Shown one piece after another: positions 16,207 through 59,629 of a stretch of DNA of 64,000 bases; within the stretch, counting starts at the first letter, position 1; the number at the start of each line of letters is the position of its first letter. The position numbers were made by a program, and so were the translations under genes. The notes beneath the pieces are model-generated. The model saw nothing but the letters and a program-made list of their open reading frames with translations, was not told the origin of the DNA and did no database searches. The stretch comes from Bacteroidia bacterium (GTDB lineage Bacteria > Bacteroidota > Bacteroidia > J057): the NCBI GenBank assembly GCA_033391075.1, contig JAWPMV010000001.1, positions 3,906,001-3,970,000 of the forward strand. The letters are read 5' to 3'.

Positions 16207-16208
16207 AT

Positions 16209-24138: not shown

Positions 24139-24361
24139 ATCAGAAAATTGTAGGATTAAGATAAGGCTAAATACTACACATTTTCTCAACAGAAAAAAAA
24201 GCTCGCCAAACCCCAGATTTCAAGCTGCGAATGACACAAAAGGCAGGGGAAAATCAATTCAGTCGTTGGGCCTTCAATACTTGCTGTTTAGCGATATTTT
24301 TTGGCTACAAATAAAACAATAGAGAATTTTGAATCATCAATACACCTCAAAAAATTTATCT

Positions 24362-32500: not shown

Positions 32501-33103
32501 TTAGGAATTTCCAAGAAACAGGCTCAAAATCATAAGTGAATACAGGCTTGTTGCAGGGTCCATGTTCTCAAGTTTTTGGCGCACATAGCCTCTTGCTTTC
32601 ACCAATTGAGATTTTACAGTATGGACTGAGAGTTGCAATTCCTGCGCAATTGTAGGATTGTCTTTGCCTTCAAAATAGCGCTTCCGAAATATCAGTTTCC
32701 TTTGGGGAGGTAGGCCTTCGATAATATGATCTACCTCTGATGCATACTCCTTTTTAATAAAAATAGTCTCTCCATTTTCAAGATCTATTATTGGATAATT
32801 CTCCAAAAACTTTCCTCGAAGTCTCTCATCACTGGCTATTTTCCTTAAGTAGGTATAGGTAGTATCCCGGGCTATTTTATATAAAAAGGGTCGAATGGAT
32901 TGCTCAGAATTTATCAGACTTCTTTTTTCCCAGATTTTAATAAAAACATCCGCTGTGACCTCTTCTGCTAGCTCAGGGATTTTCAACATGCTTTTGCAGA
33001 AATGATAAATAGGCACCTTATACTGCTCAAAGAGCCAATTTAAGCCCACTTTTTCGCTTCTCTTGAGGGCCTCTATATACCTATGTTCCTCTTTTACTAC
33101 CAA
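32501..33103 (-). CDS. ECF RNA polymerase sigma factor of the FecI type
   Basis: Sigma factor of 200 residues. Region 2 is at about 20-85 (LNWLFEQYKVPIYHFCKSML, ELAEEVTADVFIKIWEKR, RPFLYKIARDTTYTYLRK). Region 4 is at about 125-180 (GLPPQRKLIFRKRYFEGKDN, TIAQELQLSVHTVKSQLVKA). This is the Bacteroidota ECF type normally tied to FecR and SusC genes. It lies divergent from the FecR gene across 154 bp instead of in front of it on the same strand. It should direct transcription of the FecR-SusCD operon, and perhaps of itself, once released by FecR. Convergent with tsaD. Confidence 0.92.
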   Translation of the reverse strand: MVVKEEHRYIEALKRSEKVGLNWLFEQYKVPIYHFCKSMLKIPELAEEVTADVFIKIWEKRSLINSEQSIRPFLYKIARDTTYTYLRKIASDERLRGKFLENYPIIDLENGETIFIKKEYASEVDHIIEGLPPQRKLIFRKRYFEGKDNPTIAQELQLSVHTVKSQLVKARGYVRQKLENMDPATSLYSLMILSLFLGNS

Positions 33104-33257
33104 TAAAATAGATTACTAAATAACAGACATCTGCAATTCTTAATATACGAGAAATCGGATGTATCCACAAAAAATTTAGCCTTAGCGTAATCCTTTTGTG
33201 CTCTTGCTTGCGGATATACATAAACAAGGATTATTATCCTTCAGACTACTACTACAG

Positions 33258-34265
33258 ATGAAGCGAAAAGACCAACTCATCCAGAAACTCTATAACAATA
33301 GTTGTTCCCGATCTGAACTAGAAGAATTATTGAATTTGCTATCTGAGGAAACCTCCGATGAGGCTCCAAAGATTATGGAAGAATTATTGAATCAGATGCC
33401 TGAGATCTCCATTCAGGAAAAAAATGATTTCAGTAGGATAAAGGAACAGATAGATAGGCATATAAATAAGGAAGCCGAAAGAGAGCAGGAGTATAGCTCT
33501 GATAAAAAACTCAAGCCATTCTTTTTTAGACGGACAATGAGGATCGCCGCTTCACTCGTCTTATTGGCATCCTTTAGTTGGCTGCTTTATCAAAGTCAGG
33601 AGAGCAAGAAAAGCACAAAAACAACCCTGGCCGGGGAGATCAAAAAATTTGAATTACCTGACGGTTCCCAGGTAACCCTCAACGCCAATTCCTCTATTAA
33701 ATATGCAGAAAACTGGAAGCAAGGAGAAACAAGGACCGTTTACTTAAAAGGGGAAGCATATTTTAAAGTTGAAAAAAAGCCTGCTAGCGGAGCAAAATTC
33801 CAGGTTTTAACCAATGGCTTGAAAGTCGAGGTTCTGGGAACCTCCTTTAATGTCAAACAAAGAAATAAATCTACTTCTGTTTTTTTGGAAGAAGGGAAAG
33901 TTCGTCTCCAGGCCCCTGAAAGTGCAGAACCGGAAGTCCTATTGAATCCCGGAGAGCTGGTTCATTATTCTACCAGTAAAAAATCACTCACTTCTCCTAA
34001 AAGTGTTGATGGAAGATTCGAAACCTCCTGGAAAACAGGAATTCTCGAATTTGAAGAGGTTCCCTTACAAGAAATTCTTGAGAAACTGGCTGAAATCAAT
34101 GAATTCCAATTCGAGCTGAGAGACAGCTCCTTAGGCCAGGAATTACTGACCAGTTCAATTCCCGCTCACAATATTGAAAAAGCGATATCCATTTTAACGA
34201 AAACCAGCGGAATGAATTTCTCGCTTGAAAATGGAAAATATATTCTTCAGCAAAATGCTGAATAG
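33258..34265 (+). CDS. FecR-type anti-sigma factor
   Basis: Membrane anti-sigma factor of 335 residues from the ATG at 33258; the open frame extends upstream to a GTG at 33198, but that part is unlike FecR. The N-terminal cytoplasmic part (1-90) would hold the sigma factor. One membrane helix at about 97-113 (IAASLVLLASFSWLLY) is followed by the periplasmic FecR domain (EIKKFELPDGSQVTLNANSS, LKGEAYFKVEKK, VEVLGTSFNVKQ, FLEEGKVRL) and a C-terminal DUF4974 domain (about 265-333), which would receive the signal from the STN domain of SusC. First gene of the operon; 59 bp before SusC. Confidence 0.92.
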   Translation: MKRKDQLIQKLYNNSCSRSELEELLNLLSEETSDEAPKIMEELLNQMPEISIQEKNDFSRIKEQIDRHINKEAEREQEYSSDKKLKPFFFRRTMRIAASLVLLASFSWLLYQSQESKKSTKTTLAGEIKKFELPDGSQVTLNANSSIKYAENWKQGETRTVYLKGEAYFKVEKKPASGAKFQVLTNGLKVEVLGTSFNVKQRNKSTSVFLEEGKVRLQAPESAEPEVLLNPGELVHYSTSKKSLTSPKSVDGRFETSWKTGILEFEEVPLQEILEKLAEINEFQFELRDSSLGQELLTSSIPAHNIEKAISILTKTSGMNFSLENGKYILQQNAE

Positions 34266-34324
34266 AAGGAAGGATTGAAGCAATTTTTCATAGTCTTTTT
34301 AGCAGACCTAAAAACCAACAGCCT

Positions 34325-37300
34325 GTGTCTAATAACTCTACTACATATAAAACTGCAAGTTTACTTCTGCTTCTCTTTTTCAGCAGTTGGCTTTCATTTA
34401 GTTATTCCTTTCCAGCAAATATCCAGGATGAAAATGCTGGCCGACCGCTGGCAGAAGTCCTGGATGATCTGGGAGAAAGGTATAAAGTCTTTGTGAGCTA
34501 TCAATCTAAATTGATCAATGGGGTAGAAGTCGATTTTACTTTCAAACAGACAGAAAGTCTGGAAATGGCATTGGATCGATTATTGACTGAAATCGATTTT
34601 TCTTACGAATTATATCAGGACCAATATCTTATCATTTATAAGAATAGTAAGAAAGGTAGCCGAAATGCAAAGCGAATTCAGAAAAAAATCGCCCAAATCA
34701 AGCAGTTGGAAAAAAAGGGAAACCTTACCCTTCTTCGAAACAATAAAGATTTATCTCGGAGAAATCAGGAGGTACTTACAGAGCTAAAAAGGCGGAGAGA
34801 TCAGAGCATTTCCGGTAAAGTCACAGCAGAAAATGGAACTCCTCTAATAGGTGCAACTGTTCGGGCAAAAGAAAGCAGCCAGGGTACCCTGACCAATCAG
34901 GAAGGAGAGTATACGCTCATACTTTCGGATGAGGTAAAAAACCTGACATTCTCATATGTAGGCTATGAAAAACAGGAAGTAGAGATAGCTGGAAGAAAGG
35001 AAATAGACATTGTCCTGTTGGAAGAAATAAAATCTCTGGAGGATGTTGTGATTACAGCTTTGGGGATGAAAAGAGAAAAAAAATCCCTGGGATATGCTGT
35101 TCAGGATGTTCAAGGAGAAGTAATCCAAAAAAGCCGTGAGCTGGATGTTGTAAATTCTCTTTCAGGAAAAATTGCGGGGGTAAATATCACCCAGGGAGGT
35201 GGCGGACTTGGAGGCGGAGGAGCGAGAGTTGTAATCCGGGGAGAGACTTCTCTTTCAGGAAAAAACACTCCCTTGTTTGTGATTGACGGAATCCCCGCTA
35301 GTTCCAATGATGTTGCCTCAGATGATATAGCCTCTATTTCGGTCCTGAAAGGTCCGGCTGCGGCAGCATTGTATGGGTCGAGAGCTGCTGCCGGGGTTAT
35401 TCTTATAACAACTAAATCCGGAGCTTCTGCACAAAGTAGCCGGGTGGGAGTAGATGTAAACCTCAGTGTCTCCTCTCAACGTCCGTTTATCCTTCCCTCT
35501 TATCAAAATGAGTTCGGGCAAGGAAGCGGAAGTCAGTATCGATATTTCGATGGAAATAATGGTACCTGGCCAGATGGTTCCATCTCAAATGATGACTCAC
35601 GGATAAATTGGGGACCTCGATTTGACGGCCAACTTAGGCCTCAGTTTACCGGTAATAATCCCTGGCAGGCCTATCCGGACAATGTAAAGGAATTTTATGA
35701 GCGAGGAATCATAGCCAATAATAATATTGCGGTATATGGAGCAAGTCAGGAAGGGGATTTCAGACTTTCTTACACCAATATCATCCAAAAAGGGATCATT
35801 CCTAATACGGGACTTCAAACGGATCGTCTTGACTTTTCAGGAGGATGGAAACTATCTGATAAATGGGATGTCCGCGCAAACATAAAATATATTGATTCTC
35901 GCTCGGACAACAACCAGGGATATGATGTGCGCCTTTATCCCCGAAACATCGATATTCACGCCTTAAAATCCTATTGGGTGCCGGGTATGGAAGGCCTTCA
36001 ACAGCTTAAATGGAGAAGTAGCGCCAATAATCCCTATTTCATTTTACGTGAAAACAGAAGAGCTTTTAATAATCAAAGGCTGATCGGATATGTAATGACC
36101 AATTACCAAATCAGTGAGGAATTTTCCGTCATGGGACGCATTGGGCAAAACCGAAATTTTAACGAAAACAGTGCGCAAAATGCTTTTAGTACCGTGGGGA
36201 ACAACAATAAGTTTGGCGCATTCTCCACCGGTCAGTCTCGTTCCCGCGAATTGAATGCCGATTTCCTCTTAAAATATCAGCGGAACTTTGGTGAGGACCT
36301 GAATATTATCATCAGTGCAGGTGGCAATCATCTTCGCCAGGATGGCTCAAACATAAGCAGTTCTGTCGAACAACTATTGGTGCCGAATATATATAACCTT
36401 GGAAACAGGAGAGTATTTCCCAAGACAGGTAATAATGTCTATGAGAAGGAATTAAATTCTTTATATGCCTTCACAAATATTGGGTATAAAGATTACCTCT
36501 ATTTAGATATCACAGCCAGAAATGATTGGTCCTCAACTTTACCGACTAATAACAACTCCTACTTCTATCCTTCTGCCACTTTAAGTGCCGTGTTAAATGA
36601 AGCTATTAGCCTCCCCAAACCTATCAGTTTCTGGAAACTGAGAATCGGTCTGGCAAGAGTAGGAAACGATACAGACCCTTATGCATTACAGGATCAGTTT
36701 TTCTGGGGTACAGGAGAAAATGGTGTTGCAAGTATTATTCAAAGCAATGTAAAAGCAAATCCAGAGCTAAAGCCTGAAATTACAAGTGCATGGGAAGTGG
36801 GAACAGACATCCGATTCTTCAACAATCGTTGGAAAATGGATCTTACCTATTACAATTCTATCACTTCCAATCAGATTTTGCGTGTAGAAGTATCTCCGAC
36901 AACCGGATATGACTTTATTCTAAAAAATGCAGGAAAAATCAGAAGTAGCGGCTGGGAGCTGATCTTGAATGGCCAAATTTTCCAATCCAAGAATTTCAGT
37001 TGGCGGACGACTCTGAATTGGTCCCGAGATCGATCTATCGTCGAAGAATACGATCCAGAAAATCCTGATGCCTTTCTTTCAAGAAGTATTACTACCCATT
37101 TGTTTGTTGAAGATAAGTTGGGGGAAAGAAGAGGTGCGATGTATGGCAAAGGATACGAGCGTGCGCCCAATGGAGAAATTCTCTATACCAAATCCGGTGA
37201 CACACAAAGAAGCGATAAAATATTTCTGGGTAATTACAATCCTGATTGGATGGGTTCGCTCTACAATGAGCTGGATTGGGGACCACTTAGTCTTGCCTTT

Positions 37301-37834
37301 CTCCTAGATGTCCGATATGGAGGGGCCTTTTATTCCTCCACTAATTATAACCTGAACATACGGGGACTTTCTGAAGCAACCCTTTTAGGAGGCACAGATG
37401 CAAATGGCAATTTTACCCCCCGAGAAAACATATTGCCTGAGGGTATGTACCTGGATGAAGGGACCTATAGAAAACTGACCAAAGAGGACCTCCGAGAATC
37501 CGGATTAAGTTCTGGAGGATTGACGGGACAACAGTACTGGGAAAACATCATGGACAGTGAAATCCCTGAAGCGGTAATTTATGATGCTTCCTATATCAAA
37601 TTTCGAGAACTAAGTTTTTCTATTGCCCTGCCCAATTCTTTCATTTCAAAACTATCTCTTCAATCCGCCCGGGCAGGCATTGTAGTTAGGAATCTTGCTG
37701 TATGGACGGATGTCCCCAATGTGGATGCAGAAACTTTCAGTTTTTCTAACCAGGCTGGAGCCGTTCCCGGTTTGGACCGGGGAGGAATTCCTTCCGTGCG
37801 AAATATCGCCCTCAACTTAAACCTAAAATTCTAA
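34325..37834 (+). CDS. SusC/RagA TonB-linked outer membrane protein with STN domain
   Basis: Outer-membrane transporter of 1169 residues. In order: signal peptide (to about 30); STN domain (about 38-98; LAEVLDDLGERYKVFVSYQ, LEMALDRLLTEIDFSYEL); a basic helical linker rich in K and R (about 100-155); CarboxypepD-like domain (ISGKVTAENGTPLIGATVRA, LTNQEGEYTLILSDE); plug with the SusC signature (GGGGARVVIRGETSLSGKNT, PLFVIDGIPAS, AAALYGSRAAAGVILITTK); and a 22-strand-type barrel. The STN domain and the preceding FecR fit a sigma/anti-sigma signalling receptor. The start appears to be GTG at 34325, since no ATG lies before the signal peptide. SusD follows after 6 bp. Confidence 0.93.
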   Translation: MSNNSTTYKTASLLLLLFFSSWLSFSYSFPANIQDENAGRPLAEVLDDLGERYKVFVSYQSKLINGVEVDFTFKQTESLEMALDRLLTEIDFSYELYQDQYLIIYKNSKKGSRNAKRIQKKIAQIKQLEKKGNLTLLRNNKDLSRRNQEVLTELKRRRDQSISGKVTAENGTPLIGATVRAKESSQGTLTNQEGEYTLILSDEVKNLTFSYVGYEKQEVEIAGRKEIDIVLLEEIKSLEDVVITALGMKREKKSLGYAVQDVQGEVIQKSRELDVVNSLSGKIAGVNITQGGGGLGGGGARVVIRGETSLSGKNTPLFVIDGIPASSNDVASDDIASISVLKGPAAAALYGSRAAAGVILITTKSGASAQSSRVGVDVNLSVSSQRPFILPSYQNEFGQGSGSQYRYFDGNNGTWPDGSISNDDSRINWGPRFDGQLRPQFTGNNPWQAYPDNVKEFYERGIIANNNIAVYGASQEGDFRLSYTNIIQKGIIPNTGLQTDRLDFSGGWKLSDKWDVRANIKYIDSRSDNNQGYDVRLYPRNIDIHALKSYWVPGMEGLQQLKWRSSANNPYFILRENRRAFNNQRLIGYVMTNYQISEEFSVMGRIGQNRNFNENSAQNAFSTVGNNNKFGAFSTGQSRSRELNADFLLKYQRNFGEDLNIIISAGGNHLRQDGSNISSSVEQLLVPNIYNLGNRRVFPKTGNNVYEKELNSLYAFTNIGYKDYLYLDITARNDWSSTLPTNNNSYFYPSATLSAVLNEAISLPKPISFWKLRIGLARVGNDTDPYALQDQFFWGTGENGVASIIQSNVKANPELKPEITSAWEVGTDIRFFNNRWKMDLTYYNSITSNQILRVEVSPTTGYDFILKNAGKIRSSGWELILNGQIFQSKNFSWRTTLNWSRDRSIVEEYDPENPDAFLSRSITTHLFVEDKLGERRGAMYGKGYERAPNGEILYTKSGDTQRSDKIFLGNYNPDWMGSLYNELDWGPLSLAFLLDVRYGGAFYSSTNYNLNIRGLSEATLLGGTDANGNFTPRENILPEGMYLDEGTYRKLTKEDLRESGLSSGGLTGQQYWENIMDSEIPEAVIYDASYIKFRELSFSIALPNSFISKLSLQSARAGIVVRNLAVWTDVPNVDAETFSFSNQAGAVPGLDRGGIPSVRNIALNLNLKF

Positions 37835-37840
37835 AGAGAC

Positions 37841-39640
37841 ATGAATAGATCTCATACCAGCATATCTCTAGGTATTTATAGCCTCTTGCTCCTGCTTGCT
37901 TTGAGCATTCCTTCCTGCAACACCTGGGACAAGGATATCAATATTAACCCTAACTCTCCCAATGCGGTACTGGAGGGGGAAAACGCGAATGATATTGATC
38001 CTTCGGTTTTCATGGTCCCTATGCTTTGGTCTACCGTAGATGGATTTGACTATTTGGCCTGGAATGTAATTCCAGCAGTCACAGAATATCATGGAAAGAC
38101 TAAAAGTCTGAGTCAGGGTAATCGACATAAATCCTGGCATGCATTTGATGACTCAGGATTTTGGGTACCTATGTATAGCGCGATTCGGGTTGTAAAAAAC
38201 ATGAGGAGTGCGGCGATACAGGCCGAAGATCAACGCTACGAAGCTATCGCTGACATCTGGGAATCTTATACCTTCTCTATGATTACCAATCTCTATGGAG
38301 ATGTTCCCTACTTTGATCCTATATCAGACGATCCTCCGCTCCTGAGCACATATGATAGCCAATCAGAAATTTATCCGGCCATTCTACAAAAACTCAAAGA
38401 AGCAGGTGAAAAGCTAGGTCGGCTGGATGTACCCATCAATCAAGCCAGTGATCTGATATTCGCAGGGGATATTCTAAAATGGAAAAAATTCTCAAACACT
38501 TTACGTCTTCGTTTGGCCATGTATATGTCCGATGCAGATCCGGAAGCATCAAAAGCCATTTTATCTGAGATCCTCAATGATCCTGAAAACTATCCGATCA
38601 TGGAGTCCAATGATGATAATGCTTCTTTCAAAAATGATCCCATCGAAAGACCTTCCGTCTTATATAACATCAGCAAAGCCAAGATCGAAGAAGCACCTTT
38701 CAGCAATGTATTTATTGAACGGCTCATTTCTCTAAGAGATCCTCGCTTACCTATACTTGCGAAACCTGTTCGTCAGGTCCATAGTGATCCCAATACCCAT
38801 GTCTTACCTAGCAATCCGGGAGCGGTAAAATATGCGGGGCAATTATATGGTATAACAACAGATAATGCACATGCCGCTCAGTGGAATGGAGGTTTCCCTT
38901 TTGCGTCAGCTTTGGGAGATTTCTTTCGAAAGGAGGATGCAGAAGGCTTGCCTTTGATTGAATCAGCTTCAACTCCTACCCTTATTGCCATATATGCCGA
39001 ACAAGAATTTTTCCTTGCAGAGGCGATTGAAAGAGCCCTGATCGGAGGAAACGCGCGCGAACACTATGAAAATGGAATCAGGGCATCTATAGATTTTTAT
39101 CAAGCCAGTTTTTCTGGCTCGCTGTATGAAGGAGCTTATGGAAATGATGGCTTCAATGATTTATCTGCTTATCTGAGTCAAAGTTCTGTTGACTATGATG
39201 GGGGTAGAGATAAATTGACCCTTATAGCGGAGCAGAAATGGTTAGCATCCTTTTTCTTGGGGCTTGAGCCTTATTTCGATCATAGAAGAACCATGCTGCC
39301 TCCTTTGCGTGCCTCCTCTGGCGCGGAGAATTTTGGTCCCAATGGTAGTGGTAGCAAATTTCCCAGCCGCGCGGCATACTCAGATGCAGAATTGGCGAAC
39401 AACTCTTCAAATGTCCAAAAAGCCCGGGCAAGTGGTTTCCATATCCCTATTGATAGCGATGAAAGTCGCAATGAAGCCTTGATGTGGATACTCAATAACA
39501 GGGATTTACAAATGCCAACTTTCCAGGAACCCATTTATAGTAGTGATTATCCACTCATTCAATCTATCAATGGATCCGGGACGGACTTCAAGCAATGGTA
39601 TAATGAGCATTGGGAAACGATGTTTTGGTGGAAAAAATAA
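37841..39640 (+). CDS. SusD/RagB nutrient-binding outer membrane lipoprotein
   Basis: Lipoprotein of 599 residues that would cap the SusC barrel from outside. The signal sequence ends in IPSC with the lipidated cysteine at about 26, followed by NTWDKDININPNSPN, a typical start of the SusD-like_2 group. TPR-type helices follow (YEAIADIWESYTFSMITNLYG, DVPYFDP, LKWKKFSNTLRLRLAMYMSD), then LTLIAEQKWLASFFLGLEPYFDHRR and a C-terminal aromatic segment. The SusD-like_2 subgroup often goes with peptide or unknown substrates rather than the classic glycans. Its TAA overlaps the ATG of the next gene (TAATG). Confidence 0.92.
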   Translation: MNRSHTSISLGIYSLLLLLALSIPSCNTWDKDININPNSPNAVLEGENANDIDPSVFMVPMLWSTVDGFDYLAWNVIPAVTEYHGKTKSLSQGNRHKSWHAFDDSGFWVPMYSAIRVVKNMRSAAIQAEDQRYEAIADIWESYTFSMITNLYGDVPYFDPISDDPPLLSTYDSQSEIYPAILQKLKEAGEKLGRLDVPINQASDLIFAGDILKWKKFSNTLRLRLAMYMSDADPEASKAILSEILNDPENYPIMESNDDNASFKNDPIERPSVLYNISKAKIEEAPFSNVFIERLISLRDPRLPILAKPVRQVHSDPNTHVLPSNPGAVKYAGQLYGITTDNAHAAQWNGGFPFASALGDFFRKEDAEGLPLIESASTPTLIAIYAEQEFFLAEAIERALIGGNAREHYENGIRASIDFYQASFSGSLYEGAYGNDGFNDLSAYLSQSSVDYDGGRDKLTLIAEQKWLASFFLGLEPYFDHRRTMLPPLRASSGAENFGPNGSGSKFPSRAAYSDAELANNSSNVQKARASGFHIPIDSDESRNEALMWILNNRDLQMPTFQEPIYSSDYPLIQSINGSGTDFKQWYNEHWETMFWWKK

Positions 39641-40635
39641 TGAAAAGCATGAATATGTTAATGCATAAGAAATATCTCTGGCTCTATATGTCCTTATTCT
39701 TCCTTGTGGGTTTAAGTGCATGTGTTGATTTGGTTGATGAAGGATTAGAGGTAAACTATCCATTATCTGATGCCAGTTTAACGGTGCAGGCTATTACTGC
39801 TGAAAAAGGAGCAGTAGATGAAACCATTAGTTACCAGATTTCGGTCTCCTCCAGCGAGGATATTAAATCCTGTATTGTACAAAGCAGCAATCCGGGACAG
39901 AATGGTTCTGGCTTCAATGTAAGTGATCCAGCATTCGACGATCCCTTCATTGATCATATTTTTGGTACTGTACAGAAAAATACCCAGTCATTTACTGCCC
40001 GCTTTGATTACATCATTCCAAAAGACATTAACAAAAGTCGATTAAGCTTCTCTGTAATAGACGAAGCGGGCAAAGTAAGTATAGAAAAAACCATAGAGGT
40101 TGTTCCTTCTATTGCCAGATATAGCAATCAAAAACTGTATGCAAAGGATAAGAATTTCCAGGATGCCTTTGCCTCAATTGAAGGAGAAGTCTATGAGGAT
40201 ATAAAAAGCAATTATAGCTCTGTTTCGGAGGCAAATCGCGAGGTGCAGGAAAAAATCGACATTCTTTTTTACTATGATGCCAACGCTCGCAGATCAACAA
40301 TCGCAGCTCCGGCTTCAGAAAGATTGGGATTATCTCTTAGTGTAGAGAACAAGACTTTGTTCAAGAAACTATCCGGCCTAAACATCTCGGATATATCTGA
40401 ATTGAGCCCAGCCTATATCAGTCAATTGAGGGAGAATGCTTCTCTCTTGCAAGAAGGCTCGATGCAAATAGACAATCTCAAAGTAGGAGATGTAGTTGGT
40501 TTTATCACTGATTTAAATGCGCGCCATTCCCTCAAAACAGGCTTGCTTATAGTTACAGGTTTGCATCCCTCAACGGTACCTCAATATGATGGGGTTTCTT
40601 ATGTACTGGAATGTGATATAGTTGTTCAGGAATAA
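39640..40635 (+). CDS. Outer membrane lipoprotein of unknown function in the SusCD operon
   Basis: Lipoprotein of 331 residues from the ATG at 39640, whose A is the last base of the susD stop. Signal sequence LWLYMSLFFLVGLSAC gives the lipid anchor at about C28. The first 120 residues after it form a beta-rich, Ig-like region (SLTVQAITAEKGAVDETISY, FTARFDYIIPKDINKSRLSFSV), in which a strand ends SVIDEAGKVSIEKTIEV, as in surface-exposed fibronectin-like modules. A mixed second half follows (GEVYEDIKSNYSS). No family is recognised. By position (third after SusC and SusD) it is analogous to SusE/SusF, surface lipoproteins that help bind substrate, but I see no sequence evidence for a carbohydrate-binding domain. 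Confidence 0.72.
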   Translation: MKSMNMLMHKKYLWLYMSLFFLVGLSACVDLVDEGLEVNYPLSDASLTVQAITAEKGAVDETISYQISVSSSEDIKSCIVQSSNPGQNGSGFNVSDPAFDDPFIDHIFGTVQKNTQSFTARFDYIIPKDINKSRLSFSVIDEAGKVSIEKTIEVVPSIARYSNQKLYAKDKNFQDAFASIEGEVYEDIKSNYSSVSEANREVQEKIDILFYYDANARRSTIAAPASERLGLSLSVENKTLFKKLSGLNISDISELSPAYISQLRENASLLQEGSMQIDNLKVGDVVGFITDLNARHSLKTGLLIVTGLHPSTVPQYDGVSYVLECDIVVQE

Positions 40636-40637
40636 TT

Positions 40638-43244
40638 ATGAAAAGACAAATGATATATCGAATTAAGGTACTTCTTTGCTACTTTTTCACTCTCGCATTG
40701 ATCTTTAGCCTACCCTATTCTTTAAAAGCTCAAAGTGATTACAAATTAGCTGAGCAGGATTCCTTAGCACTAGTAGCCTTTTATTGGGCAACTGATGGCC
40801 CTAACTGGCTCTCCAATCAGCCGGGTTTTGGATTTAATGATTTGTCCTCGGAATGGCAAGGCAAATACGACGGGCAATTCAATCCCTGGTTTAGCGGACC
40901 CGCCAAAGACTGGTTTGGAGTAAAGGTAGAAAAGAGAGCTATTCCTAATTCAAATGACTCCACTTATAGAGTTACCTGGTTATGGCCGGTCATTGGTCGC
41001 CGCACAGATGGACAAAACCTGCTTAATGGCTATATCCCCAGAGAAATCGGACTACTCACTGCTTTGGAACAATTCAGGGTAAATGGGAATGATGGCTTTA
41101 GGTGGGAGCTTGTACCAGATGAATTATACCTTCCATCCTTGCAATGGTTGGATGTTGAAGCCTGCTGGTTTGGAGGAGGTGTTTCAGATGAATTAAGGAA
41201 CTGTGGTCAAATTCTTAAAATGAATTTGCGCTACAACTACTTCGATTATATCCCCAACTGGGATTTCCTTGATGAACAAGCCTTGAGAAATTTGAATGGA
41301 ACGCAGTGGCTTTATAATTCCAGGTTTTCCTATGCAATCCTCGAACAGATTATCGATTACTTCTATACCATTTCCCCAAACCCACAGGAATTTGGGGTTG
41401 AAATGCGAGATATGTTTGATGTGGGTGATGAGCGAGAAATAGTAGCCCCTCTGGGTAGCTCGGTGGACATTGTTTGTAATGATGCCGGAAATCAGGATGC
41501 ATTCATTAGCTATCAATGGTTCAAAGGAGGTCTTAGCCGATTTGGTCGTACCCAAAAGACTTATTCCATACCTTCCGTTTCTGCCAATGATTATGGGAAT
41601 TATAAAGTCCGTATCTCAAATGATTATGTAAAAACCTATGATCAAAATACCAATTATGGCGAGGTTTTTACCAAAGAAATCCATCTGGTTGAACAACCAG
41701 TTCCTCCGGTAATAGAGAAAGGAATCAGCTCGAACAATGGACAATCGCTTAGGCTCTTCTTCTCTAAACCAATGTCAAATTCAGCTTTGATCGAATATCA
41801 AAATCTGAGTGTAATGGCCGGCACAAATAATCTGAATATTCTATCGGCAACGATAAAAGGAAGATTAGAGAAACAAGTGGTCTTGGAATTGGATTCCCCG
41901 ATTAAGAATGGAGACTTGATTGATCTGTCCTACACAGGCAGTGGAAACATAGCAGATCATAATGGAGGATTACTTCAGGCATTCACAGGTTTTGAGGTAG
42001 AAAACAGGGTTAGACTAGCCCCCATAATCACCTCGGCGGCAACTAGCCTGGATGGTTCAGGTATCGAAGTATATTTCGACCAATTCATAGATGAGAATTC
42101 CTTTTCCGGAGCAAATTTCAAAGTTTTTGGAGACAGTCTATTGGGAATTTCAGCCATAAGTTTATTGCCAGGAGAAATAGACCGCCACATTTCAAAAACT
42201 GTCTTTCTTAATCTCACAGAACCCTTATTAGATACTGCTGCAAGTTTAAATATTCAGTACCTGTCTGGGGAAATTGCAGGTTTATACGGAGGGACGCTTG
42301 AAAGTAGTGATACGATAGCCATAGAAAACCGGGTATCCATTGAGCGGGAAACCATTACCTTCATTTTTGAAGATGGGAGTGAATCTCTGGATAATATCCT
42401 CCTTAGCGGCTCCTGGAAAGTTGATCCTATCCAAATGTATGACGATGGTACGCATGCTGATGCCATTGCCAATGACCATATCTGGACACATGTTACACAA
42501 TTGGTCGAGGACGATTATAGCTGGGACATCATCAGTCGGGAAGAAATAATGCGTTTCGATACGGTTGAAACGGTGGATCCCAATACTGGGGTTGTAACCC
42601 TGGTAATTACCCCCATTTCTATCAATGAAGATTCTATTTTAAGTGGAAATATACTCCTGGAACTTTCCGTAAAACCGGGCGAAGTTCTTGGAGATACACT
42701 CTATGGCATTCAAAATCGAGACGTAATTTTCAGATTGCGCACCCAGGGAGCCAGTGAAAATGTCTTCCTTATGGGAATTGAGGCAGATTGGAGCAATGGA
42801 AGGTTAATGTCAGCAATTGATCCTGGGAATCTCTATGCCGACACCCTTATAAAAATGACAGCAGGAGATCTTATTTCCTACAACTATAGAATTGGGGAAG
42901 ATTGGGAAAACCTGACTCCAGACCCCAGAGAGTATACCGTAAAAAATGGGGAGAACCTGATTCAGGACGAATTTGGTGTCTTTACAGATATCAATGAGCC
43001 CGCTCCTCCCCCACTGAGTATTTTCCCAAATCCAAGTCTGGATGGATTTATCAGAATCTCTGGATTGGAAGAAGTCGTGGATTTGGAAATCTATGACCTG
43101 AATGGACGAATGATAAAAGGCCAAACAAATCTTCGGGAGCATGAAATCACTTTAGACTTGAGTTCACAAGCCGCAGGCCTTTATGTAGTGAAAATTAAAA
43201 CCAATCGGGGATTTGTATATACCTATAAATTTCTACTTCGCTAA
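40638..43244 (+). CDS. T9SS-secreted multidomain protein with Ig-like and SwmB-like domains
   Basis: Secreted protein of 868 residues. Signal peptide to about 31. The N-terminal LRR cap EQDSLALVAFYWATDGPNWLS opens a degenerate leucine-rich region (to about 260). An Ig-like domain follows (SYQWFKGGL, NDYGNYKVRISNDYV; about 270-355), then two SwmB-like modules (LRLFFSKPMSNSALIEYQN; IEVYFDQFIDENSFSGANF). Next come strands with YDDGTHADAIANDHIWTH, a motif seen in calcium-binding or surface-anchor domains, and a C-terminal T9SS type A sorting domain (LSIFPNPSLDGF to the end). It shares its cap with the next gene and probably arose from the same ancestral unit. Likely surface binding or adhesion; no catalytic residues recognised. 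Confidence 0.78.
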   Translation: MKRQMIYRIKVLLCYFFTLALIFSLPYSLKAQSDYKLAEQDSLALVAFYWATDGPNWLSNQPGFGFNDLSSEWQGKYDGQFNPWFSGPAKDWFGVKVEKRAIPNSNDSTYRVTWLWPVIGRRTDGQNLLNGYIPREIGLLTALEQFRVNGNDGFRWELVPDELYLPSLQWLDVEACWFGGGVSDELRNCGQILKMNLRYNYFDYIPNWDFLDEQALRNLNGTQWLYNSRFSYAILEQIIDYFYTISPNPQEFGVEMRDMFDVGDEREIVAPLGSSVDIVCNDAGNQDAFISYQWFKGGLSRFGRTQKTYSIPSVSANDYGNYKVRISNDYVKTYDQNTNYGEVFTKEIHLVEQPVPPVIEKGISSNNGQSLRLFFSKPMSNSALIEYQNLSVMAGTNNLNILSATIKGRLEKQVVLELDSPIKNGDLIDLSYTGSGNIADHNGGLLQAFTGFEVENRVRLAPIITSAATSLDGSGIEVYFDQFIDENSFSGANFKVFGDSLLGISAISLLPGEIDRHISKTVFLNLTEPLLDTAASLNIQYLSGEIAGLYGGTLESSDTIAIENRVSIERETITFIFEDGSESLDNILLSGSWKVDPIQMYDDGTHADAIANDHIWTHVTQLVEDDYSWDIISREEIMRFDTVETVDPNTGVVTLVITPISINEDSILSGNILLELSVKPGEVLGDTLYGIQNRDVIFRLRTQGASENVFLMGIEADWSNGRLMSAIDPGNLYADTLIKMTAGDLISYNYRIGEDWENLTPDPREYTVKNGENLIQDEFGVFTDINEPAPPPLSIFPNPSLDGFIRISGLEEVVDLEIYDLNGRMIKGQTNLREHEITLDLSSQAAGLYVVKIKTNRGFVYTYKFLLR

Positions 43245-43263
43245 TAGACCAAAACCATTAACA

Positions 43264-46200
43264 ATGAAAAACTATTACCAACGTGCATTTCTGCTTTTGT
43301 TGACGGGGATTTTCTTCTGCTTCACTCCTGCAGCTGCACAAACTTTAGAATCAGACTCTCTTGCACTGGTTGATCTTTACAATGATTGTGGGGGTACAAA
43401 CTGGGTAGGATTCGATAACTGGTTGAACGGCCCCATATCGAGCTGGGAAGCCGTAACCATCGACTCCGCTCTGAATCGCGTAAGCCATGTAGGTTTTAAA
43501 AACATGGACTTGACTGGAAGCCTCCCAGCTTCCCTTGGGAATATGGATGAAATGAGTGGAAAGATCGAATTCCATGATGATAAAGGACTGACGGGAACCT
43601 TTCCATCTTTTATCTGGAATTGGACGAAAATAGACCGATTTCAATTAAAAAGGTCCGGTATTACAGCTATAGATACTACGGGACTTTCAAACCTTGTAAA
43701 CCTAACGGAATTCAATACTGAAGCAAATCCCATTACAGGAATGGTTCCCGGGGTAGTATTTACCCTTCCCGCTATGGAGAAGGTGTATGTCCATGATTGC
43801 AATTATGACCAACTTCCGCCTGAATTGACAAATATCACTGGCTTGACTCGTTTATACTTGAATGGAAACAACCTAACTGAGATCCCAGATATGTCGGGGA
43901 TGAGCTGGGGCAGCGGTGCAAAAGTCCGCTTTCACAATAACGCCTTAACCTTTGAAGACTTAGAAGCCAATGTAGCCTTGAATTCAGATCCAAATGTAGC
44001 GGAATTCCGCTACTCCCCGCAAGCGGTTGTAGGAACAGAGACTTACACCTATCCAGCTGCAGGTAGTGCTGTAAGCATTCCGGCAAATGTAGGCGGTAGT
44101 GACAACGTTTATACCTGGATCAAAGATGGGATACCTGTTGGGAGTAATCCTAGCTATGATATCGCGGCTTTTGATGCCAACACGCATTCTGGTACTTATT
44201 ATGCAGTTGTGCAAAGTAACATAGTAACTGGCCTGGATATCTCTACAGGGGAAACCAAATTGTTTGCTTCTGCCGCTGCACAGGATTCATTAGCACTCGT
44301 GGATCTTTACAATGATTGCGGAGGAACAGAATGGGTTGGATTTGATACCTGGTTAAATGGGCCCTTAAATACCTGGGAACAAGTGACAGTGGATAGTGCA
44401 AGTGGAAGAGTTACTCATGTGGGATTCAAGACAATGGACTTAACAGGCACTCTACCCGCTTCATTGGGAGATATGACAGAAATGGGAGGAAAGATCGAGT
44501 TTCATGATGATAAAGGATTGACGGGTGAACTTCCTGCATTTATCTGGAGATGGACAAATGTAGAACGCTTCCAGCTCAAGCGTTCAGGTATAACAAGCGT
44601 CAATACAAGCGGTATGGAGAACATGGTCAACCTTACGGAGTACAATACCGAAGCTAATCCTATTGCAGGAATGGTTCCGGGCGTAGTATTTACGCTTCCC
44701 GCAATGCAGAAAGTGTATGTTCATGATTGCGATTATGATCAACTTCCTCCGGAGTTGACTTCAATAAGTGGTTTGGATCGTTTATACCTGAATGGAAATA
44801 AGCTTACTTCAATGCCTGATATGTCAGCGATGACATGGGGAAGTGGAGCTAAAGTTCGCTTCCATAATAATGCGCTGGATTTCGAAGATTTAGAGCCCAA
44901 CATAGGCCTGAATTCAGATCCTAATGTTGCAGAATTCAGATACTCTCCTCAGGCGATGGTAGGTATGGAAATGTATACCTATCCGAATACAGGGGATAGT
45001 GTAAGTATCGCTGCAAATGTGGGAGGATCAGCAAATGTGTATACCTGGATCAAAGATGGCGCGCAAGTGGGTAGTGATGCTACGTATGATATTCCTTCTT
45101 TTGATCCTGCGACAAATTCAGGTACCTATTCTGCCGTTGTTCAGAGTACAATCGTAACAGGTCTGGATATCACCACCGCTAACACACACCTCTTTGCTTC
45201 TCCCCTGGATCAGGATTCTTTAGCCCTGGTTGACTTGTATAATACCAATGGTGGTACAAATTGGACAGGTTTTGATACCTGGCTAAATGGCCCCCTAAAT
45301 ACCTGGGAACAAGTCACTGTGGACAGTGCGACACAAAGAGTAACACATGTTGGTTTCAAAACGATGGATATTGTCGGAACCTTGCCAGAAAGCTTGGGTA
45401 ACCTCACCAGGATGGGAGGCAAAATTGAATTTCACGATGACTCCCTGATGACAGGTGAATTCCCGGCCTTTATCTGGCGTTGGGTAGATGTAGACCGTTT
45501 TCAATTAAAACGTTCAGGAATTACCAGCATGGATCTTACCGGCATGGAAAACATGGTCAATCTGACCGAATACAATACAGAAGCAAATCCCATCGGAGGT
45601 AGTGTACCAGGCGTGGTCTTCACCCTTCCTGCTATGGTAAAAGTATATGTTCATGACTGCGAATACGACGCAGTACCAGCTGAACTTACTTCCATCAGTG
45701 GTCTGGATCGTTTATACTTCAATGGAAACATGATTTCAGATCTTCCAGATATGTCCGGCATGAGTTGGGGGCCAGGTGCAAAAGTCAGGGTACAAAACAA
45801 TGCTCTTACCTTCGAAGATTTAGAAAGCAATGTGGTGCTGGAAGCAGATTCAAATGTAGCTGAATTCAACTTTTCTCCTCAAGCCCATGTAGGGATGGAG
45901 ACTTTGCTTGATTTAGCAACAGGAGACACACTGGATTTGAGTATAGCAGTAGGTGGAACAGCCAATACCTATACCTGGATCAGAGATGGATCTCCTATTG
46001 GAAATGACATGCTTTACAATGTTGATTCTGTAAGCGTTGCAGATGCAGGATTTTATCAGTTACTGGTTCAAAACACAATCGTCCAGGGACTGGATATTTT
46101 TAGTGAAATCTATCAGGTAAATGTAGATGGAGTAACAAGCATCAATGATCCTCTCTACTTTGGAGAGATAAAAGTGCTTGGAAATCCATTTGATACAAAT

Positions 46201-46389
46201 CTGAGAATAGAAACAGGTCGATTGGTCGAAGAACTATTGATTCTGGATATCCATGGGAAGAAGTTGATCTCAGAAGATATCAATGCAGATTACATGGATT
46301 TACAACTGGATGAATTAGAATCAGGTGTGTATCTCGTAATGCTTCGTTCAGGAAATGCGTTCCACTCCTTAAAAGTAGTGAAGCGATAA
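43264..46389 (+). CDS. T9SS-secreted protein with three 310-residue LRR-plus-Ig repeats
   Basis: Secreted protein of 1041 residues from the ATG at 43264; an upstream start at 43213 would overlap the previous gene. Signal peptide to about 26. Three repeats of 310 residues start at D31, D341 and D651. Each has the cap DSLALVDLYN, a leucine-rich part (VGFKNMDLTGSLPASLG, KIEFHDDKGLTG, FQLKRSGIT, VNLTEFNTEANPI, LPAMEKVYVHDC, LYLNGN, FEDLE) and an Ig-like part (about the last 85 residues; YTWIKDG, SGTYYAVVQS, IVTGLDI). A T9SS sorting domain (about 961-1041; GEIKVLGNPFDTNLRIE, LEELLILD-like, SGVYLVML) follows. Last gene of the SusCD operon. Probable surface ligand-binding or adhesin protein. Confidence 0.85.
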   Translation: MKNYYQRAFLLLLTGIFFCFTPAAAQTLESDSLALVDLYNDCGGTNWVGFDNWLNGPISSWEAVTIDSALNRVSHVGFKNMDLTGSLPASLGNMDEMSGKIEFHDDKGLTGTFPSFIWNWTKIDRFQLKRSGITAIDTTGLSNLVNLTEFNTEANPITGMVPGVVFTLPAMEKVYVHDCNYDQLPPELTNITGLTRLYLNGNNLTEIPDMSGMSWGSGAKVRFHNNALTFEDLEANVALNSDPNVAEFRYSPQAVVGTETYTYPAAGSAVSIPANVGGSDNVYTWIKDGIPVGSNPSYDIAAFDANTHSGTYYAVVQSNIVTGLDISTGETKLFASAAAQDSLALVDLYNDCGGTEWVGFDTWLNGPLNTWEQVTVDSASGRVTHVGFKTMDLTGTLPASLGDMTEMGGKIEFHDDKGLTGELPAFIWRWTNVERFQLKRSGITSVNTSGMENMVNLTEYNTEANPIAGMVPGVVFTLPAMQKVYVHDCDYDQLPPELTSISGLDRLYLNGNKLTSMPDMSAMTWGSGAKVRFHNNALDFEDLEPNIGLNSDPNVAEFRYSPQAMVGMEMYTYPNTGDSVSIAANVGGSANVYTWIKDGAQVGSDATYDIPSFDPATNSGTYSAVVQSTIVTGLDITTANTHLFASPLDQDSLALVDLYNTNGGTNWTGFDTWLNGPLNTWEQVTVDSATQRVTHVGFKTMDIVGTLPESLGNLTRMGGKIEFHDDSLMTGEFPAFIWRWVDVDRFQLKRSGITSMDLTGMENMVNLTEYNTEANPIGGSVPGVVFTLPAMVKVYVHDCEYDAVPAELTSISGLDRLYFNGNMISDLPDMSGMSWGPGAKVRVQNNALTFEDLESNVVLEADSNVAEFNFSPQAHVGMETLLDLATGDTLDLSIAVGGTANTYTWIRDGSPIGNDMLYNVDSVSVADAGFYQLLVQNTIVQGLDIFSEIYQVNVDGVTSINDPLYFGEIKVLGNPFDTNLRIETGRLVEELLILDIHGKKLISEDINADYMDLQLDELESGVYLVMLRSGNAFHSLKVVKR
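43354..46143 (+). repeat. Three direct repeats of exactly 930 bp inside the LRR-Ig gene
   Basis: The GAT/GAC codon that opens the DSLALVDLYN cap occurs at 43354, 44284 and 45214, so both periods are exactly 930 bp (310 codons). The third copy ends at about 46143, where the sorting domain begins. The copies differ at many third-codon positions and some residues, so they are old enough to have diverged, yet no net insertion or deletion has occurred. Confidence 0.9.
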
Positions 46390-46408
46390 ACCAAGCATTA
46401 TAATTAGA

Positions 46409-46447
46409 AACCGTCATTTAGTATTGAGCTGAATGGCGGTTTTTTTT
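46409..46447 (+). terminator. Rho-independent terminator of the SusCD operon
   Basis: AACCGTCATT at 46409-46418 pairs with AATGGCGGTT at 46432-46441, a 10-bp stem with one G-U pair and a 13-nt loop. It is followed by a run of eight T (46440-46447). Confidence 0.8.
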
Positions 46448-47599: not shown

Positions 47600-48577
47600 T
47601 TACCTCCCTTCCGCTTTACTCGCCAACCAAATCAGGGCATAAACCGCAAAGAATTGAAAAGGAATGGACTTGATATAGGGCCAGAGATAGGTCCAGATGG
47701 GATATTCTCGGCTATTGAAGCTATCCAGGCTCCACCAGAGGGCATCCGGTTCTGAGGTCCCGACATACCATGCGGGAATCAAGAGGATCATACCAATGAT
47801 AAAGAGCATGGTTCGCTTTTTCCCTTTTTGAACGCCAAACATACGATGAGAGCGCATGAACAGAGCTCCAAAAAAGAGGCTGAATAAGCTGGCCAATGAA
47901 ATGATGAGGTTATAAATCCACAATTCATTCATCCCATAATCTTCCCACAAAAAAGTCGTCCGCTCGTAGATCCAGTCATGATATTCTGTAGCAGCTTTAC
48001 TTAAAAGTAAAGTTGAAATGATAAGAACAGAGGAAAACAAGAGGGTATCTCCCAGAATCGCATGATTTTTTAAGCCTTCCCATTTCCTTCGAACGACAGT
48101 TTTGGATTTTCTAGTCTGCTTGTAGGTAGGAATACGCCGAATGCGATTTTTGTGTCGCTCCTTAATCTTTCCTGGCATCACCTTAAAAGCGGCCGATTTC
48201 TTCCCCGCAATGGTCCATACGTATTTTGCATGGGTAGCGGCAGCATAGGAAAAACCCTGGTCTATGGCTTCATAAAAGCCAGAGGCAGAGATTTTGGGCT
48301 TTTTGCACTCCACGATGATCAAGGGTGTCTTGCAGGCAGCGTCTTCATACACGACAATATCTGCTTCTCTGGAAGAGGAACCGATCTTGATATGTTCGCA
48401 GACGCGTATCTGTTCGGCCGGATAGCCAAATTTGTAAATCAGGCTCAAATATGCCTGAATTTGTACAGATTCTTCGGGATTGCTGAGTTTGCGTGTTTTT
48501 CCCTGGGGTAGATAGGAAACCTTGTCTTGTTTCTTGTTCAGGAACAAATATCGGTCTCTTTGTGCTTGTCTTATCAA
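47600..48577 (-). CDS. Membrane protein with an HsdR_N-type PD-(D/E)xK nuclease-like domain
   Basis: Protein of 325 residues. The N-terminal part (about 10-150) resembles the type I restriction HsdR N-terminal domain found alone in many Bacteroidota: LSNPEESVQIQAYLSLIYKFGYP, CEHIKIGSSSREADIVVY, and TPLIIVECKKPKIS. The nuclease-type residues D73, E90 and K92 (ECK) are all present, plus E37. A basic stretch (about 136-170; KIKERHKNRIRRI) follows, and then four predicted membrane helices (about 177-194, 221-243, 256-272, 302-320). No helicase, methylase or specificity gene is adjacent, so it is not part of a standard restriction system. The membrane fusion is unusual to me. It may cut DNA at the membrane or use the fold for binding only. 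Confidence 0.75.
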   Translation of the reverse strand: MIRQAQRDRYLFLNKKQDKVSYLPQGKTRKLSNPEESVQIQAYLSLIYKFGYPAEQIRVCEHIKIGSSSREADIVVYEDAACKTPLIIVECKKPKISASGFYEAIDQGFSYAAATHAKYVWTIAGKKSAAFKVMPGKIKERHKNRIRRIPTYKQTRKSKTVVRRKWEGLKNHAILGDTLLFSSVLIISTLLLSKAATEYHDWIYERTTFLWEDYGMNELWIYNLIISLASLFSLFFGALFMRSHRMFGVQKGKKRTMLFIIGMILLIPAWYVGTSEPDALWWSLDSFNSREYPIWTYLWPYIKSIPFQFFAVYALIWLASKAEGR

Positions 48578-48809: not shown

Positions 48810-50285
48810 CTACGCCAGTAGGCCTTTCACCACCTTCCCATGCACATCTGTCAATCGGTATCTCCTACCCTGATGTTTGAAGACCAGCTTTTCATGATCG
48901 ATGCCGAGAAGATGCAGAATGGTGGCCTGGAAATCATGGACATGAACGGGGTCCTTGGCTACGTTATAGCCAAATTCATCGGTTTCGCCATAGCTGGTAC
49001 CGGCTTTGATGCCGCCACCTGCCATCCAGGCTGTAAAGCAGCGGGGATGATGGTCCCGCCCATACCTATCACCTCTTTTGAGGCCCTGAGAATAATTGGT
49101 TCGCCCAAATTCTCCGCCCCAAATGACCAGGGTATCTTCGAGCATACCTCTTTGCTTGAGGTCTTTGACCAAAGCGGCAGATGCCTGATCGGTATCACGA
49201 CATTGTGCAGTCAGATGTTCAGGGAGGTCATTATGGTGATCCCAACCCTGGTGGTATAGTTGAACAAATTTCACATCTCTCTCAATCAGCCGTCGAGCCA
49301 AAAGGCAATTAGCAGCATAGGTCCCAGGGATACGTGATTCTTCTCCATACATCTCATAGATGTAATCCGGCTCGCCAGATACGTCCATGACTTCCGGGAC
49401 AGAAGATTGCATGCGGTAAGCCATTTCGTATTGGGCGATGCGGGATCGAACTTCCGGATCGCGAACTTCCTGATGGTAAAGCTGATTGAGCTGTTTGATG
49501 AAGTCCAGGCTTTGCCTGCGGCTGATATCGGATACGCCTTCCGGATTGCTGAGAAAGAGCACCGGATCTTTGCCTGAACGAAATTGTACGCCCTGATGCA
49601 GCGAAGGTAGAAATCCCGTTCCCCAGAGTCGGGAGGAAAGCGGTTGTGCGGCTGCGATCCGACCGGATCCTTTCGACAGCAATACACAAAAGGCCGGCAA
49701 ATTTTCATTGCTACTTCCCAATCCATAACTCAACCAGGAGCCCATGCTCGGGCGGCCACTTCTCTGAGAACCGGTTTGAAAAAAGGTCATAGCCGGATCG
49801 TGATTGATAGCTTCTGTATGCAGGCTTTTCACAAAACAAAGATCATCTGCTATACTGGCTATATGAGGTACAAGATCACTCACCCAGGCTCCGGATTGGC
49901 CTCTTTGTTTAAATTCTCTGAAAGCAGCTTTCAGGGGAAAAGCAGCCTGATTAGCGGTCATCCCAGTCAATCTTTGCCCCATACGAATCGAATCGGGCAA
50001 ATCCTCCCCTTCCCGATCACGCAATAAGGGCTTGTAATCGAAAAGTTCCATTTGGGCAGGTCCTCCACTTTGAAACAAATAAATGACTCGTTTGGCTCTG
50101 GCGAAATGATGGGGTTGAATCAGGCCTCCTATCCCTTGACTTTCTGTTGGAAGGGGAGTTTCTCCGCAGCCGGGAAGTAAAGCACTCAAAGCCGCAACAC
50201 CTATACCTGCACTAGCCCGACTCAGGAAATGCCTGCGACTCAATTGCAAAGGGGAAGTATCTTCTGGAAGTTCCTTATGTTTCAT
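48810..50285 (-). CDS. DUF1501 family protein, twin-arginine exported
   Basis: Protein of 491 residues. The signal has a twin-arginine motif (SRRHFLSRAS, R17-R18), a hydrophobic stretch and LLPGC with C40, possibly lipidated though proline at -2 is not canonical. The DUF1501 body has the alkaline-phosphatase/sulfatase-like fold: AKRVIYLFQSGGPAQMELFD, EAINHDPAMTFFQTG, RPSMGSWLSYGLGS, VIWGGEFGRTNYSQG, RDHHPRCFTAWMAGGG and DVHGKVV near the end. In Planctomycetes and Verrucomicrobia DUF1501 genes follow PSD1/DUF1549-DUF1553 genes just as here. Function is not established; a role in degrading or handling sulfated or other polymers at the surface is often supposed. It follows the PSD1 gene by 18 bp. 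Confidence 0.9.
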   Translation of the reverse strand: MKHKELPEDTSPLQLSRRHFLSRASAGIGVAALSALLPGCGETPLPTESQGIGGLIQPHHFARAKRVIYLFQSGGPAQMELFDYKPLLRDREGEDLPDSIRMGQRLTGMTANQAAFPLKAAFREFKQRGQSGAWVSDLVPHIASIADDLCFVKSLHTEAINHDPAMTFFQTGSQRSGRPSMGSWLSYGLGSSNENLPAFCVLLSKGSGRIAAAQPLSSRLWGTGFLPSLHQGVQFRSGKDPVLFLSNPEGVSDISRRQSLDFIKQLNQLYHQEVRDPEVRSRIAQYEMAYRMQSSVPEVMDVSGEPDYIYEMYGEESRIPGTYAANCLLARRLIERDVKFVQLYHQGWDHHNDLPEHLTAQCRDTDQASAALVKDLKQRGMLEDTLVIWGGEFGRTNYSQGLKRGDRYGRDHHPRCFTAWMAGGGIKAGTSYGETDEFGYNVAKDPVHVHDFQATILHLLGIDHEKLVFKHQGRRYRLTDVHGKVVKGLLA

Positions 50286-50303
50286 TTCTTTTGAGGCTTT
50301 TGA

Positions 50304-53300: not shown

Positions 53301-53504
53301 CAGCCTCAGATTTGCTTCGCGAACCTTTTCATCCGGACCATGGCATTTAAAGCATCGGTCTGAAAGAATAGGTTTGACATGAAAATTGAAATCTATTTTA
53401 TCTGGAATACTGGCAATAGCAATCTTTTCCTCCTCCCCTTTTGAACAAGCAAGAAGTAAACAAAGAATAGGGATAAGACTTAGAGACCAGTGCTTCATAA
53501 TCAT
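50304..53504 (-). CDS. PSD1 protein: cytochrome c, DUF1549, LamG and DUF1553 domains
   Basis: Lipoprotein of 1066 residues; LLAC gives the lipid anchor C20. The start is ATG at 53504, with a second ATG two codons later at 53498. The planctomycete cytochrome C1 domain has the haem motif C51-x-x-C54-H55 and [29 protein letters not shown]. DUF1549 follows ([44 protein letters not shown]). A LamG/concanavalin-like domain (about 440-640; [23 protein letters not shown]-like) is inserted. DUF1553 closes the protein ([46 protein letters not shown]). It overlaps the preceding gene by four bases. Role unproven; the haem and lectin-like parts suggest a surface redox enzyme for a polymer. Confidence 0.92.
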   Translation of the reverse strand: [1066 protein letters not shown]

Positions 53505-59591: not shown

Positions 59592-59629
59592 ACAAAGGTC
59601 AATCATTTATCCAAACAAAGATTAAACCT

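Follow-up and report, generated by a model that had tools for sequence, protein, structure and literature searches.

A conserved SusC-SusD cassette with two LRR/Ig-type secreted proteins, perhaps for capture and import of an alpha-mannose-containing glycan

Introduction

What does a Sus-like outer-membrane uptake operon import when no degradative enzyme is encoded beside it, and is such an operon a unit in its own right? The question is raised by a locus in a 64,000-nucleotide stretch of DNA (the window) at 3906001-3970000 on contig C1 of a 9.49-Mb Bacteroidia genome in 5 contigs. An earlier note, made from the sequence alone, had described six tightly linked genes with no enzyme among them and had proposed an undescribed uptake system. 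The missing enzymes alone are unremarkable, since a CAZyme gene is absent from around half (52%) of 28,250 susC/D loci in the portion of the PULDB survey available to us (PMC6499787). The interest lies in what accompanies SusC and SusD, in whether the same genes recur together elsewhere, and in what adjoins them where they do.

Results

Six plus-strand genes, all of them open, are separated by gaps of 59, 6, -1, 2 and 19 bp, exactly reproducing from the ORF coordinates the tight linkage first described. The first encodes a FecR anti-sigma factor (33258-34265; Pfam FecR 71 bits, FecR_C 31.6 bits; a longer start at the GTG at 33198 is possible). The second encodes a SusC TonB-dependent transporter (34325-37834), in which barrel, plug and CarbopepD_reg_2 all exceed their Pfam cut-offs, and the third, 6 bp downstream, a SusD (37841-39640; SusD-like_2, 238.7 bits), the substrate-binding lipoprotein lid; with these SusC-type features present and SusD following, the two are predicted to form a lid-and-barrel outer-membrane importer. 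A surface lipoprotein (39640-40635) and two secreted proteins, P5 (40638-43244) and P6 (43264-46389), complete the row. As had been claimed, a terminator closes it: an intrinsic hairpin on the plus strand running into a T run (about 46406-46444; -21.4 kcal/mol, z -5.9, with none of 200 shuffles equally good), which a simple terminator scan did not list. The Bacteroidota-type promoter had a single match in the whole window and none at the operon (chance mean 1.95), and sigma-70-type matches in the window were at chance level. The six genes stand as members, but the original account omitted a divergent one that belongs to the set, an ECF-type RNA polymerase sigma factor on the minus strand (32501-33103; Sigma70_r2 and r4_2 above the Pfam cut-off); by ORF coordinates, 154 bp separate it from FecR, which starts at 33258. 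The SusC N-terminus carries an extra domain that matches FecR_C at 24.9 bits (cut-off 24.4) and no STN model, and that we read as STN-like; with this putative signalling domain, the sigma factor and FecR, the ECF/FecR trans-envelope signalling set is complete.

The lipoprotein has no Pfam family above its cut-off, and its profile found only chance matches among solved chains. Its structure model (pLDDT 74.5) suggests an Ig-like N-terminus and a C-terminal alpha/beta domain of DUF4466-like fold, matching 4ei0 (DUF4466) with a VIA Z of 17.3 over 259 residues at an rmsd of 7.4 (the next row scores 11.6); the large rmsd may reflect two domains set at different angles. PF14725 (DUF4466) is matched by one of seven lipoprotein members (E 5.6e-4), and a search of that family with the window lipoprotein gave no match; Cys28 is invariant in the seven. 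P5 opens with a DSLALV...NW stretch of the type found at the start of each P6 repeat, continues with an Ig domain (Ig_3, at its cut-off of 30) and further beta domains, and ends in a type IX secretion (T9SS) sorting tail at 41 bits (cut-off 27). P6 consists of three LRR-Ig repeats with a period of 310 aa and mutual identities of 64-77% (LRR_8 35.5 bits, Ig_3 37.2 bits, both above cut-off), followed by a sorting tail that, at 23.6 bits, falls under the cut-off of 27. The claim of two T9SS proteins is thus upheld for P5 and weaker for P6; the LRR/Ig label first given to P6 holds, and the SwmB-like label is weak, SWM_repeat scoring 22.2 bits in P5 against a cut-off of 27. We discarded a fold assignment for P5, since its model is poor (pLDDT 57) and its structural matches are mostly generic Ig chains. 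Stand-alone P6-like proteins occur in genome G067 (L155 9113-10714, L156 8549-10108), where the neighbours fetched include no SusCD homologue, so this type of protein also occurs outside uptake loci.

The absence of an adjacent degradative enzyme is confirmed. The Pfam-scanned ORFs between 1 and 57.7 kb of the window, which are all but a few smaller ones, include neither glycoside hydrolase nor lyase, sulfatase or phosphoesterase. The gene of hydrolase type closest to the operon lies on the far side of TamB and TsaD, at 22816-24189, and encodes an EstA_Ig_like/Peptidase_S9-family esterase. Two adjacent alpha-amylase-family (GH13-like) genes lie at 58092-61279. Elsewhere in the window, a tight plus-strand row at 12416-17837 (a TonB receptor with FecR_C/STN-like N-terminus, a DUF4249 lipoprotein and a family-less protein) constitutes another uptake operon without enzymes. 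A minus-strand gene at 47600-48577 has the odd architecture of a Type I restriction HSDR_N_2-like nuclease domain with a long C-terminal part in which membrane segments are visible by eye. Three minus-strand genes follow in a row at 48810-54919 (DUF1501; PSCyt1-PSCyt2-LamG-PSD1; a DUF2231/PSCyt1/LRR protein), Planctomycete-type cytochrome genes inside a Bacteroidota genome; homologues of all three are present in L107 (Arundinibacter).

SusC, SusD, lipoprotein, P5 and P6 form a real conserved cassette. It was found in at least 11 carriers, after removal of two probable duplicates: the window genome (G000), G217, G331, G852 (L059), G870, G901, G1023, G1063 (L055), G1074, L056 and L057; the genome searches are samples, and more carriers may exist. 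Eight of the 11 belong to one family, f69, which would be Saprospiraceae in the wide sense because L055, a Saprospiraceae MAG, and L059, a Lewinella, fall in it; L056 is a Bacteroidales MAG, and G217 and G331 belong to the same genus. Many carriers lie on contigs that break off early; wherever the gene order is readable it is the same. SusC-SusD-lipoprotein are in order in 10 of 11 (SusC is cut in two of them, and G870 begins at the lipoprotein), lipoprotein-P5 in all 10 that are readable (G1023 ends at the lipoprotein) and P5-P6 in all 7, two of these being partial; no other gene of at least 100 aa is listed between the cassette genes in the carriers. Such repeated occurrence of all five genes in one fixed order makes chance linkage unlikely. 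The earlier note had called for a search for its six-gene set in other genomes and had placed the secreted proteins in the uptake unit. What recurs is the five-gene cassette, a distinct unit in which P5 and P6 are kept with SusC, SusD and the lipoprotein; in the seven other carriers where the start of SusC can be read, the extra N-terminus is always missing, and the six of these with a readable upstream flank show no flagged ECF or FecR homologue next to SusC, so that these signalling parts are seen, among readable carriers, only with the window copy.

The individual searches trace the reach of the cassette. The SusD search of 395 genomes of the class, at E up to 1e-40, returned two copies at 77-79% identity (G217, G331) and four more at 33-35%. 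In a 395-genome sample of the phylum, P5 was found at 52-55% in G217 and G331 (50 genomes had some match, the rest being partial and at 2.6e-10 or weaker), and in a phylum sample of that size a three-row lipoprotein profile brought back the three genomes already known plus G413, a weak match. P6 is present at full length in the same three among 365 genomes of the class and partially in G067, G086 and G211, where the stretches fetched around the matches hold no SusC/SusD homologue. A SusD profile scan of public genome contigs placed five loci (L055-L059, 45-80%) among its best 80 matches, four of which contain the lipoprotein and P5, and the lipoprotein profile found 8 copies in 398 genomes of G217's family.

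The copy in the window was probably acquired horizontally, which is the simplest reading of two facts: within the order, none of the 21 other genomes, 12 of which share the window's family and several of which are incomplete, has the lipoprotein, and SusD matches seven f69 copies at 76-80% identity (L056 at 69%, L057 at 52%), where TsaD, a housekeeping gene beside the operon, is only 55-56% identical to those of G217 and G331. In four genomes of the window's own family TsaD is 66-70% identical, in two of them (G005, G012) it adjoins TamB as it does in the window, and the stretch fetched around it holds no operon homologue in any of the four. The window copy nests among f69 copies in an 11-row SusD tree (95/95) and in the P5 tree (95/93); an earlier 87-row SusD tree again put it among f69 copies but next to other rows, so that its exact place differs between the two, and the lipoprotein tree gave no resolved placement. 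SusC is 69-71% identical to the G331 and G217 copies, the two compared. A less simple but conceivable alternative is vertical descent with many losses under strong constraint on SusCD, since lipoprotein, P5 and P6 are 47-62% identical to f69 copies, near the TsaD level.

Seven loci have a readable upstream flank: the window, G217, G331, G1023, G1063, G1074 and L056. In four of them a GH92 alpha-mannosidase gene is found no more than 8 kb from SusC, at 130 bp in G217 (divergent), 4.4 kb in L056, 6.0 kb in G1074 and 7.5 kb in G331. If a PUL is defined by a CAZyme adjacent to susCD, and 8 kb is taken as adjacent, these four qualify and the window does not. The earlier note had held that homologous loci with adjacent CAZymes would mark the operon as a reduced standard PUL; loci with a CAZyme beside or near the cassette exist in G217, G1074, G331 and L056, so that this expectation is borne out in part, and no GH92 is near the cassette in G1023 or G1063/L055, nor in the window itself. 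Within the reach available to a control, GH92 was present in 3 of 7 carriers vs 4 of 75 loci around more distant SusD (Fisher p 0.012, uncorrected, with GH92 picked after being seen, G217 and G331 in the same genus and the controls from other families). The control loci, L060-L134, are in many cases clipped by contig ends, and three of the four positives are from one genus; single-sequence searches of the 75 also found sulfatases in 6, Exo_endo_phos homologues in 2 and myo-inositol oxygenase in 1. We regard the enrichment of GH92 near the cassette as suggestive. The GH92 of G217 is the only match in its genome, whereas the G331 genome has six and GH92 is common in some genomes; that of L056, only about 28% identical to the G217 and G331 proteins, is therefore of another subfamily.

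For the window copy, the most telling evidence is that the GH92 of G1074 is 71% identical to a GH92 encoded on contig C4 of the window genome. The C4 protein, about 50% identical to those of G217 and G331, retains the Glu common to six GH92 proteins compared, and the 20 kb fetched around its gene holds no SusC/SusD homologue. The remaining GH92 matches in this genome are a partial one on contig C1 and one on C5 that adjoins a further SusCD.

Beyond GH92, the neighbours differ from carrier to carrier, and none of the enzyme or transport families seen beside other carriers occurs among the window's neighbours. In G217, GH92 is followed by a methyltransferase gene beyond the oxygenase discussed below, and there is a sulfatase at a distance of about 6 kb from SusC. 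Between SusC and GH92 in G331 lie genes for a TonB receptor, a T9SS protein and a GH115-like protein, with GH28 further out and a sulfatase about 5 kb off beyond P6. L056 has GH28 as well as GH92 upstream; G1023 has an oxidoreductase, a SASA esterase and a TRAP-type binding protein; G1063/L055 has an FMN-dependent dehydrogenase and an FGGY sugar kinase upstream; and L059 has an AP_endonuc_2 gene. The SSF symporter gene that lies past P6 in G217 and G331 was considered as an inner-membrane partner and rejected, being missing after P6 in the window, L057 and L059, the other three carriers with a readable flank there. In G1074, PSD1 and DUF1501 genes precede GH92 outward from SusC. The like pair in the window (DUF1501 and PSCyt/PSD1, 48810-53504, minus strand) is a doubtful member and was rejected as a firm part, as DUF1501-type matches number 14 in the genome and the window copy, ranking second, is not the clear best match of the G1074 gene. 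Two observations concern more distant SusCD pairs: one in L070 (Splendidivirga corallicola) has in its vicinity a homologue of myo-inositol oxygenase and an SSF symporter closely resembling that of G217/G331, and those in L051 and L052 (G340, G034) adjoin PF01663/sulfatase-superfamily phosphodiesterase-like genes, with GDPD_2 and HAD-type genes also in L051, and are possible organophosphate or phosphonate uptake loci.

Discussion

Our leading reading, which we hold tentatively and at somewhat less than even odds, is that of a mobile capture-and-import cassette with dispersed enzymes, perhaps for an alpha-mannose-containing glycan or glycoconjugate. We infer binding, transport, regulation and substrate from the observed gene order, domains, conservation and GH92 genes of relatives, by analogy with established knowledge of T9SS, SusCD and ECF/FecR systems. 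P5 and P6 would be exported by the type IX system and remain at the cell surface, and a large substrate would be held there by their LRR and Ig domains. Pieces of this substrate would be handed to the SusC barrel by SusD and the DUF4466-like lipoprotein, with TonB powering import. In the window genome, substrate binding may turn the operon on through the STN-like domain of SusC, FecR and the divergent sigma factor. The cutting enzymes would be encoded elsewhere, the likeliest being the GH92 alpha-mannosidase on contig C4. The GH92 neighbours make an alpha-mannose-containing substrate the most likely one, and in this respect the cassette's relatives resemble alpha-mannan PULs such as that of Salegentibacter Hel_I_6, which, in the portion of PMC9213526 available to us, combine SusCD with GH92 exo-alpha-mannosidases. 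Unlike such PULs, the carriers have no GH76 among their Pfam-scanned neighbours, and in the window GH92 is not adjacent.

Peptides are a serious rival substrate, even if we consider it unlikely that the cassette is a peptide or glycoprotein importer of the BT2263-2264/RagAB type, in which the LRR/Ig proteins would hold protein, surface proteases encoded at a distance would cut it and SusCD would import the peptides. LRR and Ig domains are often protein-binding. BT2264, which reportedly has a peptide ligand, is by far the closest solved chain to the window SusC (E 1.3e-98, the next solved SusC being at 3e-42), and it is again the closest when a profile of three SusC copies is used. Moreover, an S9/BD-FAE-type hydrolase, a Peptidase_M19 membrane dipeptidase (2.8 kb past P6) and a D-serine-dehydratase-type gene all lie within about 5 kb past P6 in G217. 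Against this, the alignment lacks a 19-residue plug stretch of BT2264 in the window SusC, the plug being equally short in L056, G1023 and G1074; we read the missing stretch as the long plug loop that contacts the ligand in BT2264, as described in the part of PMC7782687 at hand. SusD is only distantly similar to BT_2263 (E 1e-12), and no peptidase family exceeds its cut-off among the Pfam-scanned neighbours of carriers other than G217.

It is improbable, in our estimate, that the substrate is a glycan or glycolipid with phosphodiester links, such as inositol-phosphate mannosides, released and trimmed by GH92 and phosphoesterases. Phosphoesterase-family genes do occur by three carriers (the metallophosphoesterase PF00149 upstream in L056; PF01663 in L057 and LamG-Exo_endo_phos in L059, both after P6), and myo-inositol oxygenase follows GH92 by 30 bp in G217, running divergently from the cassette, and lies 20 kb from SusC in G331. 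PF00149/PF01663 proteins are also found in 576 of 14,713 susC/D loci without CAZymes, sulfatases or peptidases, by the portion of PMC6499787 consulted. However, these are three different enzyme families in one carrier each, none is near the window copy, and myo-inositol oxygenase has no match in the window genome.

That the operon is an ordinary reduced PUL, stripped of the enzyme genes once beside it and now decaying or out of use, seems to us similarly improbable. Relatives with CAZymes exist and the window copy has none, but its six genes are open and tightly spaced, its SusC and SusD are highly conserved, and the ECF, FecR and STN-like domain found only here among readable carriers suggest use. 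Vitamin or metal uptake, a vitamin complex having been among the substrates first suggested, was set aside, with SusD present and no vitamin or metal genes among the scanned neighbours.

How far, then, is the proposal of an undescribed system supported? A distinct conserved unit is supported; an undescribed system free of enzymes is not, as GH92 is near four of seven loci and CAZyme-less loci are common. The loci without adjacent CAZyme, sulfatase or peptidase in the PULDB survey (PMC6499787, as far as available) share the SusC/SusD pair, and what the window adds is a fixed DUF4466-like lipoprotein and two T9SS-type LRR/Ig proteins. Among the matches listed, the nearest SusCD outside the cassette set is a GH95/GH29/sulfatase locus of Arenibacter certesii (L058), which shares the ECF-FecR-SusC-SusD order, with SusD 45% identical; unlike the window, it has a Big_5 + LamG third gene, no P5 or P6, and its own enzymes. 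The literature searched yielded no publication on DUF4466 and, judged by title and abstract start, no description of SusD, leucine-rich repeats and type IX secretion together. On this thin literature basis the new part is the fixed cassette itself, two LRR/Ig T9SS proteins with a DUF4466-like lipoprotein, for which we found no description. A bolder extension, to us a long shot, is that T9SS LRR/Ig proteins rather than enzymes first capture a mannosylated, phosphodiester- or inositol-bearing glycoconjugate (a glycolipid anchor or glycoprotein) and pass it to the lipoprotein and SusCD, a surface receptor stage of which the literature searched holds no description for SusCD systems.

The mobile capture-and-import cassette would link substrate capture with LRR/Ig T9SS proteins and with DUF4466, a fold family that has no assigned function. 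The comparison of carriers suggests alpha-mannosides as a testable substrate class and points to candidate partner enzymes encoded at other sites of the genome. Since the parts of the cassette stay constant across lineages and the adjoining enzyme varies or is absent, it may offer a handle on the CAZyme-less susC/D loci, most of which, among those surveyed, are without a known substrate.
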